A DNA stretch of 33,625 bases. Source: Bryobacterales bacterium. Lineage in GTDB: Bacteria; Acidobacteriota; Terriglobia; Bryobacterales; Bryobacteraceae. This document shows, piece after piece, positions 6,542 to 31,521 of this stretch. The stretch's first letter is position 1, and every line of letters starts with the position of its first letter. The translations under genes and the position numbers were made by a program. The DNA lies in assembly GCA_003167255.1 (NCBI GenBank), contig PMTR01000197.1:1-33625 (forward strand), in the 5' to 3' direction. The notes under the pieces are model-generated. The model saw nothing but the letters and a program-made list of their open reading frames with translations. It was not told the origin of the DNA and made no database searches.

Positions 6542-6580
6542 ACAGCGTCCAAGAAACAGGTGGACAGTCGTGCAGAGAGA

Positions 6581-6620
6581 GCCGCCTAAAGGCGGCTGCG
6601 GCCAGGATTGGCCGCCCCAC
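6581..6620 (-). repeat. Hairpin repeat module, type A (two tandem hairpins, CCCCAC end)
   Basis: Two stem-loops lie side by side: GCCGCC-TAAA-GGCGGC (6581-6596), then GCGGCCA-GGAT-TGGCCGC (6598-6615), followed by the terminus CCCCAC. Read on the minus strand it begins GTGGGGCGGCCA, the same start as the module at 31369. It is placed between clpP and the convergent peptidase gene. Confidence 0.75.
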
Positions 6621-6656: not shown

Positions 6657-6745
6657 GTGGGACAGACGATCGGTTTTTGTCGTCTGTCGGGCCTTTGCGC
6701 TTTGGCGAGGCAAGACAGGCCACAAAAGGCGATGGCCTGTCCCAC
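6657..6745 (+). repeat. Hairpin repeat module, type B (89 bp, inverted ends GTGGGACA/TGTCCCAC)
   Basis: The element is bounded by GTGGGACA (6657-6664) and its inverse TGTCCCAC (6738-6745). Inside are a 7-bp stem CAGACGA/TCGTCTG (from 6662) and a 9-bp stem GACAGGCCA/TGGCCTGTC (from 6714). Its first 33 bp recur in inverse orientation at 31489-31521 with one mismatch, and 15 bp of its other end (6730-6744) recur exactly, inverted, at 31333-31347. This shows a true dispersed repeat, not a chance palindrome. Confidence 0.82.
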
Positions 6746-11162: not shown

Positions 11163-12890
11163 ATGATCCAAGGGATGCCAGGCAAGATCCGCAATCCGAT
11201 TCTGCGGGGGTTCCACCCGGACCCGTCGATTGTGCGCGTGGGAGACGATTACTACATCGCCACGTCGACGTTCGAGTGGTACCCGGGAGTGGAGATTCAT
11301 CATTCGCGGGACCTGGCGCATTGGCGGCTGGTGAGGCGGCCGCTTGAACGGGCGACGCAGTTGAACATGCTCGGCGATCCGGATTCGTGCGGGATCTGGG
11401 CGCCATGTCTGAGCTACGCGGACGGGCTGTTCTATCTGGTCTACACCGATGTGAAGCGCTACGGGCGGTCGACGGCGGGGCCGGGTGGCGTGCCGCACGT
11501 AAGAGTTGACAATGAGAGCATGAGCGCGACCAGGGGTTCGCGCGCGGACGAGGGCGTCCGCCCCACTTTGGGCGTAATGTTCCGCGACATGCACAATTAC
11601 GTGGTGACTTGCGCCAGCGTGGAAGGGGAATGGTCGGAGCCGGTTTACCTCAACTCGAGCGGGTTCGACCCGTCGCTGTTCCACGATGAGCGAGGGCGGA
11701 AATATTTGGTGAACATGGTGTGGGACCATCGGCCGGGTCGCAATCGGTTCGCGGGGATCGGCTTGCAGGAGTACTCGGCGGCGGAGCGAAGGCTGGTGGG
11801 GCCGGCGCGGGTGATCTTCGAAGGGACGGCGCTGGGGTTCACCGAAGGGCCGCACTTATACAAGCGCGGGGGCTGGTATTATCTGCTCACGGCGGAGGGC
11901 GGAACGGGATACGGGCACGCCGTGACGCTGGCGCGTTCGCGGGATCTGCAGGGGCCGTATGAAGTGCATCCGGAGGGGCCCATTCTGACGTCGCGCGACC
12001 GGCCGGAGCTGGAACTGCAACGCGCGGGCCACGCCGACCTGGTGGAGACGCAGCACGGCGAGACGTATCTGGTGCATTTGTGCGGACGGCCGCTCAGCAG
12101 CCTCGGGCGGTGCACGTTGGGCCGGGAGACGGCGATCCAGAAGATGGCTTGGGGCGAGGATGGATGGCTGCGGACGGCGGACGGGCGGGGCCTTCCCTGC
12201 CCCGAAGTGGATGCGCCTCGCTTGCCGGCGTGTGTCTTCGCGGCGGCGGCGGCACGGGAGGAGTTCGACGGCGAGAAACTCGCGGCGGACTTCCAGTGGC
12301 TGCGGTCGCCGTGGCCGGAGGAGTTGTTCAGCTTGACGGAGCGGCCCGGACACTTGCGGCTGTACGGGCGGGAATCGCTGGGCAGTTTGTTCCGGCAGGC
12401 GCTGGTGGCGCAGCGGCAGCAATCGCACCGCTACACCGCCGAGACGGTGATGGAGTTCGAGCCGGAGAGCTTCCAGCAGATGGCGGGGCTGGTGTGCTAT
12501 TACAGCGGCGTCAAATTTCATTACCTGTACGTGTCGCACGATGGGGAGTTGGGGAAACATGTGGGAGTGATGAGCTGCCATCCGGACACCGGGCAGCCGG
12601 ATCTGGCGATTGCGCCGCGGGCCATTCGCGCGGGAGCGGCGGTGGGGTTGCGGGTGGAGGTGGATCGCGAGCGGCTGCGGTTTGGGTATCGGGTGGGGGA
12701 GGAAGAGTGGCAATGGATTGGGGAGGAATTCGATGCCGGCATCCTGTCGGACGAGGCGCCGCCGCCGGGCCCGAATTTCACGGGGGCCTTCGTGGGGATG
12801 TGCTGCCAGGATCTGGCGGGAACCGGAAAGGCGGCGGACTTCGATTTCTTCGAATACCGGGAGGCGGAGGAAGTTGAAAGAAGGGCGTAG
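11163..12890 (+). CDS. GH43 beta-xylosidase/arabinofuranosidase with in-frame repeat insertion
   Basis: Glycoside hydrolase family 43 enzyme, probably releasing xylose or arabinose from hemicellulose oligosaccharides; 575 residues. The five-bladed catalytic domain shows the general base Asp20 (HPDPS), the pKa-tuning Asp169 (SGFDPSLF) and the general acid Glu228 (TEGPHLY). A C-terminal beta-sandwich domain (about 370-570) matches the XynB type. No signal peptide is seen, so it is probably cytoplasmic and acts on imported oligosaccharides. Residues about 101-138, between YTDVKRY and MFRDMHNYVVT, have no counterpart in the usual sequence (about 540 residues) and come from a hairpin repeat inserted without breaking the frame. 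The start at 11163 is 1 bp after the previous stop; Met5 (11175) is an alternative. Confidence 0.88.
   Translation: MIQGMPGKIRNPILRGFHPDPSIVRVGDDYYIATSTFEWYPGVEIHHSRDLAHWRLVRRPLERATQLNMLGDPDSCGIWAPCLSYADGLFYLVYTDVKRYGRSTAGPGGVPHVRVDNESMSATRGSRADEGVRPTLGVMFRDMHNYVVTCASVEGEWSEPVYLNSSGFDPSLFHDERGRKYLVNMVWDHRPGRNRFAGIGLQEYSAAERRLVGPARVIFEGTALGFTEGPHLYKRGGWYYLLTAEGGTGYGHAVTLARSRDLQGPYEVHPEGPILTSRDRPELELQRAGHADLVETQHGETYLVHLCGRPLSSLGRCTLGRETAIQKMAWGEDGWLRTADGRGLPCPEVDAPRLPACVFAAAAAREEFDGEKLAADFQWLRSPWPEELFSLTERPGHLRLYGRESLGSLFRQALVAQRQQSHRYTAETVMEFEPESFQQMAGLVCYYSGVKFHYLYVSHDGELGKHVGVMSCHPDTGQPDLAIAPRAIRAGAAVGLRVEVDRERLRFGYRVGEEEWQWIGEEFDAGILSDEAPPPGPNFTGAFVGMCCQDLAGTGKAADFDFFEYREAEEVERRA
11524..11566 (-). 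repeat. Hairpin repeat module inside the GH43 coding sequence
   Basis: Two abutting stem-loops, GCGCGA/TCGCGC (11524-11543, 8-nt loop) and GCGGACG-AGGG-CGTCCGC (11544-11561), are followed by the terminus CCCCAC (11561-11566). Read on the minus strand it starts GTGGGGCGGAC, matching the ends of the intergenic modules at 25274 and 31369. Together with flanking bases it encodes the extra loop of the enzyme. Confidence 0.72.
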
Positions 12891-21489: not shown

Positions 21490-21599
21490 GTGGGGCAGGA
21501 TGGTATCCTGCGCGCCGGTTGGCAACCGGCGCTGGGCGGCCGTTTGCAAACGTCGGCAAGCGGGTTACCAACCCGCCGCGGGTTACCAACCTGCCCCAC
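21490..21599 (+). repeat. Hairpin repeat module, type A, with at least four tandem palindromes
   Basis: Bounded by GTGGGGCAG (21490-21498) and CTGCCCCAC (21591-21599). Inside, in order: AGGAT/ATCCT, a near-perfect 21-bp palindrome GCGCCGGTTG-G-CAACCGGCGC, the 12-bp palindrome CGTTTGCAAACG, and GCGGGTT-ACC-AACCCGC. It lies between glgP and gnd, upstream of the gnd start. Confidence 0.82.
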
Positions 21600-24304: not shown

Positions 24305-25201
24305 CTAATTCTCGGTCGGCGTTCTCTCCAGGTGGTCCACCACCAGCAGCGTTAGCGGCAGCCGGCGCGGCTCCAGCTTGAGACCGGCTTTCTGTACCGA
24401 CGCGAAGACCGAGTCGCCGCCAGGGTCTGTAGCCCCTTCCGGCGCACGCCGTGCCGCGTCGATCACCATGCCCGCGGCCCGCGCCGCGTTGAGCATCTCG
24501 TCGCGCGAGGCGTCCAGCCCCAGGTCGTATCGTCCTGTCAGCCCCGTCTGGTCCACCACCGGCCGGTCCGTGAATCGCGATAGCCAGTCGAGCATACTGG
24601 CGATCGTCATGTTCTTCAAATCGACGTGCAGCCCATTCGCAGTCGTAGACATCTGCGCCGATCCGTTAGGACCACTGGTGGTCATCGGACTGGCGCCCAT
24701 CCCAGACCGGCCGCCGGCCGCTGCACCCGCTCCATCCGTGGCCTCATCGGGCGTTGACTCCTTCAGCTTCGATCCATCCTTACCGGCCACCAGCGCATAC
24801 ACCGGCATCTCCTTGCTGGAGATGTGCAGCACCAGGTGGAATCGTTCCTTGAGCAGCGTCTGCATCATCTCGGGCACCTGGTCGGATTTGGCGCCTTCGG
24901 GCAGCTTGGCCACCACGTCGAACCTCGAGGTGGTCATCCAGTCCGGTCCGGAAATCTGGTAGAGCTTCACGCGGTAGGCCGCGCGAATCAGCTCGGCCAG
25001 CGAGACGTCCGAAAAATCCACGCGCGCGGCGTCCACGTTGACGCTGATGTGCTGCTGGCCGGCCATCATTCGTTCCGCGCTGAGCGGCTCAGCCGGCTTG
25101 ATCGACGCCACTTCGAAGGCCAGCGTGGCCGCGGCCTTCTGGGGCGGAGCCGCCGCCAACGCCACTCCCGCCCACACACCAATCAGGATCCTATTCCGCA
25201 C
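24305..25201 (-). CDS. TIGR03435 / DUF3738 family exported protein (copy 1)
   Basis: Member of a family strongly expanded in Solibacter-like Acidobacteria; function unknown. About 298 residues from a GTG at 25201, chosen because it gives the signal peptide MRNRILIGVWAGVALAAAPP with GGAGGGG about 12 bases upstream; the open frame goes further but runs into a repeat module. Family blocks in order: [49 protein letters not shown], the segment VPEMMQTLLKERFHLVLH, DRPVVDQTGLTGRYDLGLD and the closing LLVVDHLERTPTEN. The same domain occurs fused to BlaR1-type M56 peptidases, so an envelope-sensing role is conceivable. It is most like the copy just upstream at 25403. A glycine/alanine-rich linker lies between the two halves. 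Confidence 0.85.
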   Translation of the reverse strand: MRNRILIGVWAGVALAAAPPQKAAATLAFEVASIKPAEPLSAERMMAGQQHISVNVDAARVDFSDVSLAELIRAAYRVKLYQISGPDWMTTSRFDVVAKLPEGAKSDQVPEMMQTLLKERFHLVLHISSKEMPVYALVAGKDGSKLKESTPDEATDGAGAAAGGRSGMGASPMTTSGPNGSAQMSTTANGLHVDLKNMTIASMLDWLSRFTDRPVVDQTGLTGRYDLGLDASRDEMLNAARAAGMVIDAARRAPEGATDPGGDSVFASVQKAGLKLEPRRLPLTLLVVDHLERTPTEN

Positions 25202-25273
25202 AGATAACAACCGCCCCTCCGAGGCATGCTGCGTTTCGCAGTACCCCTGTCGTCCATTTTGACACGGGCGCCG

Positions 25274-25362
25274 GTGGGGCGGGCAATCCTGCCCGCAGCC
25301 GGCTTCAGCCGGCTTCTGGACCCGCTGGAAAGCGCGTCCGCAGCCTGAAAAGGCTGCCCCAC
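25274..25362 (+). repeat. Hairpin repeat module, type A (89 bp)
   Basis: Bounded by GTGGGGC (25274-25280) and GCCCCAC (25356-25362). It contains the stems CGGGCA-ATCC-TGCCCG, GCCGGC-TTCA-GCCGGC, CGCT-GGAA-AGCG and CAGCCT-GAAA-AGGCTG in tandem. Its first half closely matches the module at 31369-31414. It separates two DUF3738 genes. Confidence 0.82.
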
Positions 25363-25402
25363 AGTCCGGGCGCATACTCGGCATTCTGGTTGCCCCACTC
25401 CC

Positions 25403-26368
25403 CTAGTTCGCGACCGGGACTTTCTCCAGGTGGTCGATCACCAGCACCTCCACGGGGAGCTTGCGCGGTTCCAGCTTGAGCCCGAGCAATTCGATGGAGT
25501 TCGCGAGCGAGACCGCGCTCGGATCCGCGGCCGCCTCCACTGGCGCGCGGCCCGCTTCTCCCGCGCCAGGTCCGGAAACCGCCATGCCGGACGCTCTCGC
25601 CACGTTGAGCAACTCCTCGCGCGAAAGGTCCAGCACGAAATCGTAGTTGCCCTTCAGCGCGGTCATGTCCGTGACCGGACGCTCCGTGAAGCGCGCCAGG
25701 TATTCCGCCAGCACCGGCATGGTCATCGTCTGGATGTCCAGGTGCATGCCATTGGGGCCGGTGGTCTGCCGGATGGTGCCGTTGGGCCCGGTGGAGGTGA
25801 CCACGCCCTTGTTGTCGATCCCGGCATCGTACTGGATCGCGCCAGTGCCGCCGGCCGCCGGCGCATTCGGATCGGGTGCGGATTCCTTCACCTTCGGCCC
25901 GCCCTTCGCCACCACCAGCGCATAAGCAGGCAATTCCTTGGTGGTGCGGTGCAGCGTGAGCTGAAACCGCTGCTCCAGCAGAGTCTGCAGCATTTCAGGA
26001 ACGTCGCTGCGCTTGGCCCCTTCCGGCAGCTTGGCTACCACGTCGAAACGCTCGGTGTTCATCCAGTCGGGACCGGAGAGCTGGTACGACTTCACTCTGT
26101 ATGCCGTGCGGATCAGATCGCCCAGAGACAGGCTCCGGAGGTCCACGCGCGCCGCATCGATGGTCACGCCGATGCGTTGCTGGCCCGCCGCCAGTTTGGC
26201 CGGGTCGAGCGGCTCAGCCGCTTTCACCGACGCTACTTCGAATGCCGGCGGGGCAGTCTGACTGGCCGCGGCCCCTGCCGCGAGCGCGGCTGCCACCATA
26301 CCGCTTACCAACCTGATCCCTGCGGATCTCACCCGGCGCCTCCAAACCTTTGTCTCACCCCGCCCCAT
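25403..26368 (-). CDS. TIGR03435 / DUF3738 family exported protein (copy 2)
   Basis: Second DUF3738 protein, about 321 residues. The ATG at 26368 lies inside the last codons of secA (14-bp overlap), with the secA sequence AAGAAG as ribosome-binding site, so it is translationally coupled to secA. The N terminus is a basic region ([15 protein letters not shown]) and then a hydrophobic signal core ([16 protein letters not shown]). Family blocks: [49 protein letters not shown], the segment [37 protein letters not shown] and [15 protein letters not shown] Gly/Thr/Asn-rich middle section (about 175-215) varies from copy 1. No catalytic motif is evident. Being an exported product following the export motor gene may reflect position only. 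Confidence 0.87.
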
Positions 26369-29291
26369 GGCACTTCTTATACTTCTTCCCGCTGCCGCAC
26401 GGGCAAGGATCGTTGCGTCCCACCTTGTGCCCCACGGCCACGGTTCTCGGCCCGCTGGAATCGTCGCCGCCCAATTGCAATGCCGCCAGTTCCTTATCCT
26501 TCTTGCGCTCGATGTTGCGCGTGAAGTCTTCCATCTGCGCCTTGGCCGCCCGCCGCCTCTCTTCGTCCACGGCTTCCGCGGCCGCGCCGCCGCGCGAATC
26601 TCCGCCGCCCGATCCCGACGGCACGCCGTTGCCCGATCCGCCGCCTTCCCCTTCGTCATCTTCCGGGAACGGCAGAATCGGCCCGGAACCCGTGCTCACC
26701 TGCAGGAAGAACAGGTATCGCACCGTCTCGTCTTCGATCCGGTCCATCATCGCCGTGAACAGCTCGAACGATTCCTTCTTGTACTCCACCAGCGGGTCCT
26801 TTTGCCCGTACGCGCGGTTGCCGATGCCCTGCTTCAGCTCGTCCATCGAGAGCAGGTGGTCCTTCCATTGGTTGTCGATCACCTGCAGCATCACGATGCG
26901 CTCGGTCTGCCGCATCACATCGGCGCCCACCATGTCTTCTTTTTCCTGGTACTTCTGCTTCAGCCGTTCGAGCACCGCGTCGGACATCTCGATCCGCGTC
27001 TTGTCGCCCAGCTCCGCCAAATCGATCTTCGCTCCGAACGCGCTCAGGACATCGTTGCGCAGCGTAGCCAGGTCCCAGGTGTCGGGGTGCTTGTCGTCGG
27101 GGCAGCGCATGTCGATCAATTGATCGACGATGCCCTGCACCATCTCCATTACCCGCTCCTTCTGGTCGATGCCTTCCAGCAACTGGCGCCGCATTCCGTA
27201 GACTGCCTTGCGCTGTTTGTTCATCACATCGTCGTATTCCAGCAGGTGTTTGCGCGCCTCGAAATTCTGCATTTCGACGGCTTCCTGCGCCTTGGCGATG
27301 CGCTTGGTGATGAGCCCGCTCTCGATCGGCACGTCCTCTTCCATGCCCAGGCGCAGCATCAGGTTCTGCATCCGCTCGCCGCCGAAAATGCGCAGCAGGT
27401 CGTCCTGCAGAGAGAGGAAGAACTTCGAGCTGCCGGGGTCGCCCTGGCGGCCGGCGCGCCCGCGAAGCTGGTTGTCGATGCGCCGCGATTCGTGCCGCTC
27501 CGTCGCCACAATGTGCAGCCCGCCCAACCCCACCACTTCGTCATGCTCCCGGTCGGTTTCTCCCTTGTAGCGCGCATAGATCTCGTCCCACTTGTCGCGC
27601 CGCACGCGGTAGAACTGGTCCAGGTGCGTGAAGAAGAAAAAATGCTCGTCGGCAATGTACTTCGCTTCGCTCTCCGCGAGGCGCTCCGCCACCTTCTCCT
27701 TCAGGCAGGCATCCTTGGTCATGAACTCCGGATTGCCGCCCAGCAGGATATCCGTACCGCGCCCGGCCATGTTGGTCGAAACCGTCACCGTGCCCTTGCG
27801 CCCGGCCTGCGCCACGATGCTGGCTTCGCGCTCGTGGTTCTTGGCATTCAGCACTTCGTGCCGCACACCCATCTTCTTCAGAATGCCCGACAGCTTCTCG
27901 GATTTCTCCACTGAGATGGTGCCCACCAGCACCGGCTGTCCCTTGGCGTTGAGTTCCTTGATCTCCTTCGCCGCGTTGCGGAACTTCTCTTCCTCGGTCC
28001 GGTAAACCATGTCCTGGTTCTCTTTGCGGATCATCGGCTGGTTGGTGGGAATCACCGTGACATCGATGTTGTAAGTCTTCTGGAATTCCGCCGCTTCCGT
28101 CTCCGCCGTGCCGGTCATCCCCGACAGCTTCTTGTACATGCGGAAATAATTCTGGAATGTGATGGTCGCCAGCGTCTGGTTCTCCCGCTGGATCTTCACA
28201 TTTTCCTTGGCTTCCACCGCCTGGTGCAGCCCGTCGGACCAGCGCCGTCCCGGCATCAGGCGCCCCGTGAACTCGTCCACGATGATCACTTCCGGCCCTT
28301 CGTCGCCGTCCTTGATCACGTATTCGCGATCCTTCTGGTATATTACGTGCGCCTTCAGAGCCGCTTCCACGTGGTGCTTCCATTCCTGGGTTTCGTAGCT
28401 GTAGATATCGGGAAGGTTCAGCAACTTGGCCACTTTGTCGAAGCCATCTTCGGTGAGCGCCACGGCTTTGTGCTTCTCGTCCATCGTGTAATCGCCAGTG
28501 GTGATGCCTTTTTCGCTCGGATCTTGGGTCTCGATCACTTCGCCACGCACCAGTTTCGGGATTATGCGATTGGCCCTGTAGTACTTATCCGTGGATTCCT
28601 CGCTCGGACCCGAAATGATCAGCGGCGTCCGCGCTTCGTCGACCAGGATCGAATCCACTTCGTCCACGATGGCGTAATGATACTCGCGCTGCACGCAGTC
28701 CGTGATGCGGAACTTCATGTTGTCGCGCAGGTAGTCGAAACCGAATTCGTTGTTCGTCCCGTAGGTGATGTCGGCGCCGTAGGCCGCCTTGCGCTGCTCG
28801 TCGTCCAGATCGTGAACGATCACGCCCACGTGCAGACCCAGAAACTTGTGCAGCCGGCCCATCCATTCCGAGTCGCGCTTGGCCAGGTAATCGTTCACCG
28901 TGATTACGTGCACGCCCTTGCCTTCGAGCGCGTTCAGGTAGCACGGCAGCGTGGCCACCAGCGTCTTGCCTTCGCCGGTCTTCATTTCGGCGATCTTGCC
29001 CCGGTGCAGCACCATGCCGCCGATCAACTGCACGTCGAAATGCCGCATGTTCAGCACGCGCCGCCCGGCCTCGCGCACAACCGCGAAGCTCTCAATCAAC
29101 AAATCGTCCAGCGGCGCGCCCTGCGCCAGCTTTTCTTTGAACTCGATGGTCTTGGCGGCGAGGTCAATGTCCGACAATTGGCGCATGGCCGGCTCGAGAT
29201 CGTTGATCGCCGCCACGGTGGGCTGCATCTCTTTGATCTCGCGCTCGGTTTTAGTGCCGAAGACTTTCGCCAGGATGGTGTCGACAATCAT
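26355..29291 (-). CDS. secA: Preprotein translocase ATPase SecA
   Basis: Motor ATPase that pushes unfolded preproteins through SecYEG at the inner membrane; 978 residues, longer than E. coli SecA (901). Walker A is MKTGEGKT (103-110), and the DEAD-type site is [16 protein letters not shown] (about 208-223). The second ATPase domain has [20 protein letters not shown] and the arginine finger region [13 protein letters not shown], preceded by an extra segment ([19 protein letters not shown]) that accounts for some of the length. A long Gly/Ser-rich linker precedes the C-terminal zinc motif [13 protein letters not shown] used for SecB or lipid contact. The start [20 protein letters not shown] is canonical. 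The gene is followed with overlap by a DUF3738 gene and preceded on the same strand by another. Confidence 0.97.
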
Positions 29292-29436: not shown

Positions 29437-30162
29437 CTAGTTCTCCGACGGCTTCTCCACATGGTCGATCACAAAAACCTCCACGGTCCGCTTGGTTGCC
29501 TCCAGTTTCAGCCCGAGTTGCTCTTGGATGCCTGCAAAAATGGAAGGCCCCAAATCCTCGTTCGTGGGGGTGGCAGCCGCTTGCACGGGCGCAAAATCCA
29601 GAGTGACGTCGTACTTGCCCTCGAGGCCGGTCTCATCGAAAACCGGGTGTTCCAGAAGCTTCGTCAGCATGTCCACCAGAGCGGCCATCCCGATCCCCTT
29701 GCCTCTAATGCGGCGCGGGCCCCAGCTTGCGCTGCTGGTTTCCGTCGCCTGCGGCATCTTGGGTCCGCTCTTCGCCGGCACCAGGAGATAGGCCGGCAGG
29801 CTCCGGGTTTCGCGGTGAAATGTCAGCTTGAACCGGTCCGCCAGCAGCGCCTGCAGCATTTGCGGAATCTGCTCGCCCTTACCGCCCTCCGGCAGTTTGG
29901 CGAAAATGTCGTATCCCTCCGAGTCAAACCCTTTCGGCCCGCCGGCGAGTTGGTTGTCGTTCAGGTGATACGCCATCTCGATGCAAGCTTTCACCGTGTA
30001 GTTGCGTAGCTCCACCCTGCCGGGAAGCGAGCGCATGCTGTAGCCGTTGAGGTTCGGATCGCCGGGCTTGATGGATGCCACTTCGAACTGCGCCTGCGCG
30101 CCCCAGGCGGCCAGTGCCACAACCAGCCCCACCGCGCCGCCGACCTTTCGCGTGATCTTCAT
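29437..30162 (-). CDS. TIGR03435 / DUF3738 family exported protein (copy 3)
   Basis: Third and shortest DUF3738 protein, 241 residues. ATG at 30162 follows GGAGGGACAGACC and starts a signal peptide (KITRKVGGAVGLVVALAAW). Mature blocks: FEVASIKPGDP, VELRNYTVKACIEMAYHL, QLAGGPKGFDSEGYDIFAKL, the segment IPQMLQALLADRFKLTFHRE, EHPVFDETGLEGKYDVTLDF and VFVIDHVEKPSEN. It lacks the Gly-rich middle insertion of copies 1 and 2 and is clearly more diverged, so the three are not a recent triplication. It lies 145 bp upstream of secA on the same strand and is divergent from the beta-propeller gene (42 bp between starts). Confidence 0.86.
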   Translation of the reverse strand: MKITRKVGGAVGLVVALAAWGAQAQFEVASIKPGDPNLNGYSMRSLPGRVELRNYTVKACIEMAYHLNDNQLAGGPKGFDSEGYDIFAKLPEGGKGEQIPQMLQALLADRFKLTFHRETRSLPAYLLVPAKSGPKMPQATETSSASWGPRRIRGKGIGMAALVDMLTKLLEHPVFDETGLEGKYDVTLDFAPVQAAATPTNEDLGPSIFAGIQEQLGLKLEATKRTVEVFVIDHVEKPSEN

Positions 30163-31332: not shown

Positions 31333-31521
31333 TGGGACAGGCCATCGGCGCTTGACAGGGTCGAAAAAGTGGGGCGGCCAATTTTGGCCGCAGCCGGCTT
31401 CAGCCGGCTTCCGGTGCTGCCCCGCCCACCCGGCGACATCCCGGCTCCCCCACATTTTCGTGAAATTTCGCGGGCCGCAGGTCCTCTGCGACAGACGACA
31501 AAAACCGATAGTCTGTCCCAC
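31333..31521 (-). repeat. Composite repeat: type B ends enclosing a type A module
   Basis: The inner edge at 31489-31521 is the inverse of 6657-6689 with one mismatch in 33, and 31333-31347 is the exact inverse of 6730-6744. Between them lies a type A module (31369-31414) beginning GTGGGGCGGCC, with the stem GCGGCCAA-TT-TTGGCCGC and two AGCCGGCT units. The type B halves are 141 bp apart here against 40 bp at 6657, as if the A module had been inserted into a B module. Confidence 0.75.

Follow-up and report, generated by a model that had tools for sequence, protein, structure and literature searches.

An in-frame REP element within the GH43 glycosidase gene of a Bryobacterales bacterium

The GH43 gene and its insertion

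The window, i.e. the whole stretch of 33,625 nucleotides analysed here from a Bryobacterales bacterium (GenBank assembly GCA_003167255.1, contig PMTR01000197.1), carries a beta-xylosidase-like gene whose loop between the YTDVK and HNY motifs is unusually long. The features of this locus are the following, with the basis of each in brackets.

11163..12890, plus strand: GH43 beta-xylosidase-like gene, 575 aa (GH43 domain PF04616 and C-terminal GH43_C2 domain PF17851)
11483..11563, no strand: net insertion of 81 nt, i.e. 27 codons, residues 108-134 (comparison with the empty sites of G001, locus L032, and of L060)
11500..11566, minus strand: REP element with spacer, the part resembling other copies (by eye, L005, L008 and L015 share the AAGAGTTG box and the double hairpin)
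11501..11509, plus strand: AAGAGTTGA box (pattern AAGAGTTGAN{10,22}GAGCGCGAC at 3 places in the window's own genome, G000, and 0 in G001; control 0)
11524..11543, no strand: hairpin 1, GCGCGACCAGGGGTTCGCGC, 20 nt (fold and consensus; the sole core mismatch lies here)
11544..11561, no strand: hairpin 2, GCGGACGAGGGCGTCCGC, 18 nt with a 7-bp stem and a 4-nt loop (fold)
11563..11566, minus strand: GTGG tag, CCAC on the plus strand, separated by 1 nt from the base of hairpin 2 (sequence)

The product of this gene matches PF04616 (E 5.2e-99) and PF17851 (E 2.7e-63), and its AlphaFold model superimposes on the xylosidase 1yrz_A of Bacillus halodurans with a Z of 52.5 and an rmsd of 1.6, at 57% identity over 517 residues. 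The reading frame is open throughout, and Asp20, Asp169 and Glu228, which we take to be the catalytic residues, are invariant in an alignment of 13 sequences, so that the intact frame and catalytic framework reported in a preliminary description of this DNA stand. With the GH43 domain, the Asp/Asp/Glu set and a beta-xylosidase C-terminal domain, the protein qualifies as a GH43 beta-xylosidase of predicted activity; a PADLOC scan of it gave no match. In phmmer alignments with solved homologues the match is broken at about residues 100 to 140.

The site is free of the insert in the same-genus genome G001, which is 82% complete and the sole congener compared. It is also empty in L060, from Bryobacterales bacterium palsa_349, a locus identical to G001 over 160 bases; the two may perhaps be one assembly. 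Against these sites the insertion measures 81 nt, the alignment allowing its edges to shift 2 nt leftwards. The loop from YTDVK to HNY has 45 residues in the window, versus 18 in nine loci of relatives (L032-L036, L060-L063) and 9-11 in seven more distant loci, when only loci matching the YTDVK/HNY pattern are counted, the remaining ones being uninformative. Homologues of the GH43 protein at E up to 1e-80 occur in 6 of 151 genomes, the window's own included. The preliminary description had put the insert at 38 residues (about 101-138), a figure that reflects comparison with shorter-loop enzymes and that must be corrected to 27; the span it gave, 11461-11583, contains the insert but is somewhat too wide. 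Its expectation that the segment is not common to homologues from unrelated genera agrees with the 18-residue loops of the nine relatives' loci. A real gene, a preserved frame and an uninterrupted orthologue are thus all at hand, and on these sequence comparisons the case qualifies as an in-frame intragenic REP.

Between the window and G001, the GH43 gene has a dN of 0.041 and a dS of 0.319 over 541 codons, i.e. a dN/dS of 0.13. When G067 is used as outgroup, 20 synonymous and 5 amino-acid-changing codons fall on the lineage carrying the insert, and 31 and 7 on the other lineage. Judged from these substitutions, the gene is constrained, and the lineage with the insert shows no sign of relaxation or of a surplus of amino-acid changes. 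The event itself may be recent, since the 45-nt core of the element has a single mismatch to the consensus of 16 copies, and the selection test hence says little about the time since insertion. In the structural model, residues 100-140 have a pLDDT below 50 and lie between strands 89-97 and 143-150. The insert loop is probably disordered according to this prediction, and the order of the strands would place it on the catalytic face.

The repeat and its genome-wide family

Read on the minus strand, the element consists of a GTGG tag, a hairpin and a second, abutting hairpin. This is the arrangement first noticed at 11524-11566, where two abutting hairpins of 20 nt and 18 nt are followed by a CCCAC tail (11562-11566), and the predicted fold of the 43-nt core reaches -24.9 kcal/mol. 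By eye, the part of the insert that resembles other copies of the repeat covers about 67 nt (11500-11566); the 17 nt at the start of the insert (11483-11499) match none of the copies compared. As anticipated, the insert DNA has copies elsewhere in the genome: its 23-nt end recurs with at most 2 mismatches at 38 places of the 7.35-Mb genome, and the reversed-pattern control gives 0. Among the copies of this subfamily that were read, three of which contain N bases, an abutting first hairpin is present in most, and in several of them compensatory base changes preserve the stem of the second (GCAGAC..GTCTGC, GCCGAC..GTCGGC, GCGGGC..GCCCGC). In some cases (L004, L009, L010) a second GTGG unit in inverted orientation accompanies the copy.

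A pattern for the wider GTGG class matches 471 places in the same genome, again with 0 matches for the reversed pattern. Of 101 genomes, 53 have one match or more; the counts are 471 in G000, 335 in G049, 332 in G037, 305 in G030 and 42 in G001; low counts in other genomes may be due to chance, as controls gave 0 to 2 per genome. Within one bacterial family, the counts range from 0 to 471 (G000, G030, G037 and G049 versus other members), a spread that, taken at face value, suggests repeated bursts and losses.

The criterion and the biochemistry of REP systems with a GT[AG]G tag have been described (PMC6006769, PMC8266576). The former source asks for GTAG or GTGG placed 0-2 nt 5' of a secondary structure whose basal stem measures 7 to 20 nt and whose loop has 2-5 nt. 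The GH43 element has GTGG, 1 nt, a 7-bp stem and a 4-nt loop. It also has many copies, its subfamily occurring at 38 places and its class at 471, and they are mostly intergenic, only 6 of 112 clusters being judged intragenic, as expected of the REP superfamily.

The window itself contains five GTGG double-hairpin units, the GH43 one included (GTGG starting at 6620-, 11566-, 21490+, 25274+ and 31369+), which bears out the earlier remark that the same architecture recurs in it. None appeared in any of 10 mononucleotide shuffles. A GTGG tag followed by one hairpin is far less distinctive, with 7 in the window versus 0 to 6 in shuffles. The other units, all from a scan of the window for GTGG hairpins, are:

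6580..6620, minus strand: GTGG double-hairpin REP of another subfamily
21490..21532, plus strand: GTGG double-hairpin REP
25274..25362, plus strand: REPIN-like pair formed by a GTGG double-hairpin REP (25274, +) and, facing it, a GTGG unit with one hairpin (25362, -)
31369..31409, plus strand: GTGG double-hairpin REP (also found by comparison of repeats within the window)

Two further features of the window were observed. A 33-nt inverted pair (6657-6689 and 31489-31521, GTGGGACAGACGATCGG..), 97% complementary and with arms about 25 kb apart, lies near GTGG repeats at both ends. Three similar ORFs, two of them adjacent (24305-25384, 25403-26659, 29437-30162 (-)), share DNA stretches 72-77% identical; by this resemblance they represent a local duplication of an unnamed gene family.

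In-frame REPs in other genes of the genome

We examined 112 distinct clusters of repeats. They came from 30 of the 38 places (L001-L030) and from the surroundings of 98 class members (98 of the 100 listed among the 471 matches, two at the start of contig C11 being omitted); clusters near a locus end were dropped. By a strict codon-usage test, neither flank is coding in 74 clusters, one flank in 30 and both in 8, and three of these 8 are open in one frame. A looser test was passed by nine loci, six of which we counted after inspection by eye; the other three (L011, L132, L189) were read as shadow frames, upstream extensions or gene ends. We thus judge that REPs lie in frame within genes in 6 of the 112 clusters, three of them by the strict test:

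L002: GH43 gene with in-frame REP (strict test)
L157: phosphomannomutase-like enzyme with in-frame REP (strict test)
L199, 726-2594, minus strand: CapA-like protein with REP behind the PGA_cap match (strict test)
L202, 524-1942, plus strand: MFS transporter with in-frame REP spanned by the MFS_1 match (looser test)
L005: secreted protein with in-frame REP, weakly like alpha-galacturonidase, 32 bits for a cut-off of 1300 (looser test)
L030: membrane protein with in-frame REP and without family match (looser test)

The in-frame REPs occur in both orientations. In the MFS transporter a double REP adds about 38 residues midway through the MFS_1 match, which are not seen in G001 or G002, and the repeat-coded segments of the MFS, phosphomannomutase-like and L005 proteins are absent from their G001 orthologues. 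The CapA-like protein has a REP-coded peptide in both species (VGQALSPAN in L199, VGRALSPAN in L216 of G001), and such peptides can thus persist through speciation. The membrane protein has two REP-coded peptides, one of them also in G001; as it matches no family, its case rests on the coding score and on the G001 orthologue.

No clear case of an out-of-frame insertion in a gene was found among the 112 clusters. Two candidates from the strict test, in which a stop or a frame change occurs (L186, L203), are read as REPs that lie where one gene ends, before another. Open frames across REPs in L004, L007, L009, L011, L013, L014, L015, L017, L021 and L028 were taken by eye for shadow frames, gene ends or upstream extensions. 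The remaining eight of the 38 places (L221-L228), scanned apart, gave no firm in-frame case; L227 may be a C-terminal one, outside the count. The proteins of L203 and L227 are similar (..LFLRYQ.Q.ER.YRRAI..), and the C-terminus of each runs into a REP (VGQTPWSARVPLDPL, VGRTPPSVRDSLVAP).

The repeat itself is nearly free of stops. Whichever of its six frames is read, the 45-nt core is uninterrupted in 26 or 27 of the 27 N-free copies, and the full 81-nt GH43 insert is open in 4 of 6 frames.

Origin of the insert and relation to known systems

These observations are best accounted for if a GTGG-tagged REP of a large resident family entered the GH43 gene at a surface loop of the enzyme after the split from G001. 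A net 81 nt were brought, hence the frame was kept. Since the element is GC-rich and nearly stop-free in every frame, and the loop was already variable in length, the protein would still fold and purifying selection would persist on an enzyme with 27 extra residues. The insert might then be near-neutral and the enzyme presumably still active. We hold it highly probable that this is an in-frame REP insertion into a maintained GH43 gene; why it was kept is a separate matter.

The insertion could have been made by transposition through a RAYT, an enzyme of the Y1/HUH type. The genome has 16 matches to the Y1 transposase domain PF01797, and 6 of them (L046, L047, L048, L051, L053, L056) have a GTGG hairpin of 7 bp or more within about 1.5 kb. 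Repeats of the GTGGGGC type are only mildly frequent near Y1 loci, with 5 in about 50 kb versus about 3 expected (471 in 7.35 Mb); the GCGGACGCCCTCGTCCGC repeat of the GH43 subfamily was found within about 1.5 kb of none of them. In an NCBIfam scan of seven ORFs (six from G000, one from G001), L050 passes NF047646, the REP-associated tyrosine transposase, with no GTGG hairpin seen nearby; L048 falls just below that cut-off, and L037 passes the IS200/IS605 one. RAYT-like genes have been reported in Acidobacteria (PMC3733652). From what is known of the family, mobilisation of the GH43 REP by a RAYT seems likely. CCCAC is already present at the empty site of the GH43 gene, and we considered a target rule of the IS200/IS605 kind, with insertion 3' of GTGG. 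We dropped it as a general rule: among 17 other copies compared with G001, ten lack the repeat across an aligned site, four align by one flank and three are unreadable, and the ten have untidy junctions with, by eye, CCCAC or CCAC in 0 of 10 empty sites, and they yield no precise target rule.

Two accounts of why the insert was kept are compatible with the insertion reading. The repeat might be retained for its RNA or DNA hairpin, acting in attenuation or mRNA stability, the amino acids being a by-product. The stable predicted fold is in line with this, and other REPs are considered to influence mRNA (PMC3733652). Yet the element lies inside the gene with only TTT after the hairpins, and it is lineage-specific, so that no conservation supports such a role; we find it unlikely. 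The new loop might instead have been selected for a change in substrate binding or enzyme stability, as its inferred position on the catalytic face would allow. But the loop is predicted to be disordered, one mismatch from the consensus leaves little time or sign of adaptation, and REPs are also found in unrelated proteins of the same genome, which makes this slightly less likely still. 

Two other accounts do away with the insertion. Assembly or binning artefacts at repeats are a natural concern in a genome of 200 contigs, with N bases in or beside some REP copies. However, both flanks of the insert belong to one gene, read in a single frame on one contig, whereas a wrong join at a repeat would usually link different genes, and five further genes hold in-frame REPs, two of them with a repeat-coded peptide that G001 shares; an artefact is therefore very improbable. 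That the segment is an old GH43 feature lost by relatives is hardly credible, for although the loops of relatives range from 9 to 18 residues, nine of their loci have exactly 18 and the DNA core is one mismatch from the consensus of a genomic repeat.

In-frame insertion of a REP thus remains our reading, and the GH43 gene and its empty site allow a clean comparison of the states before and after a mobile hairpin became protein; the enzyme, moreover, should be easy to assay for activity. With 6 of 112 clusters judged in frame and 471 class members, REP-rich acidobacterial genomes are suggested to carry more such cases, and if so the old question of whether intragenic REPs are tolerated or useful becomes directly testable. 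One might speculate further that the REP population is a recurrent source of ready-made protein segments in this bacterial family, its all-frame-open units entering loops and linkers of many proteins in either orientation, some persisting across species and a few gaining a function, possibly the catalytic-face loop of GH43 among them. As a whole, this broader scenario seems to us rather doubtful.

In-frame intragenic REPs are already known from other bacteria, and the GH43 case is a well-documented addition to them. They have been described in unrelated genes of several bacteria, mostly Opitutus terrae and Rickettsia conorii (PMC3733652), so that the preliminary description, which cited Rickettsia only, overstated the novelty. 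The sections of that report consulted here name no intragenic case in Acidobacteria, and we found no paper on such cases among the literature matches listed.

The element shares with REPIN/RAYT systems (PMC3116915, PMC2817692) its tagged hairpins, the occurrence of paired inverted units and the presence of Y1 transposases in the genome, but, unlike in those systems, no transposase gene with the element's own subfamily within about 1.5 kb was found among the Y1 loci of G000. Rickettsia palindromic elements, as cited in PMC3733652, are also palindromes in frame within likely functional proteins; two of them, RPE-4 and RPE-6, are grouped there with the CGTC repeats, for which that paper reports no association with transposase genes, and we liken them to our case by their description. 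The closest parallel is found in the intragenic GTAG/CGTC REPs (Di Nocera et al. 2013, PMC3733652), which are likewise short tagged palindromes in frame within unrelated genes. They occur singly, as dimers or in groups encoding 20 to 30 residues, are otherwise mostly intergenic, and genes inactivated by their insertion are thought to be purged. The GH43 REP differs from them in its GTGG tag, its second abutting hairpin and its acidobacterial host, and it goes beyond that report by adding the empty site of a congener and a test of selection on the interrupted gene.
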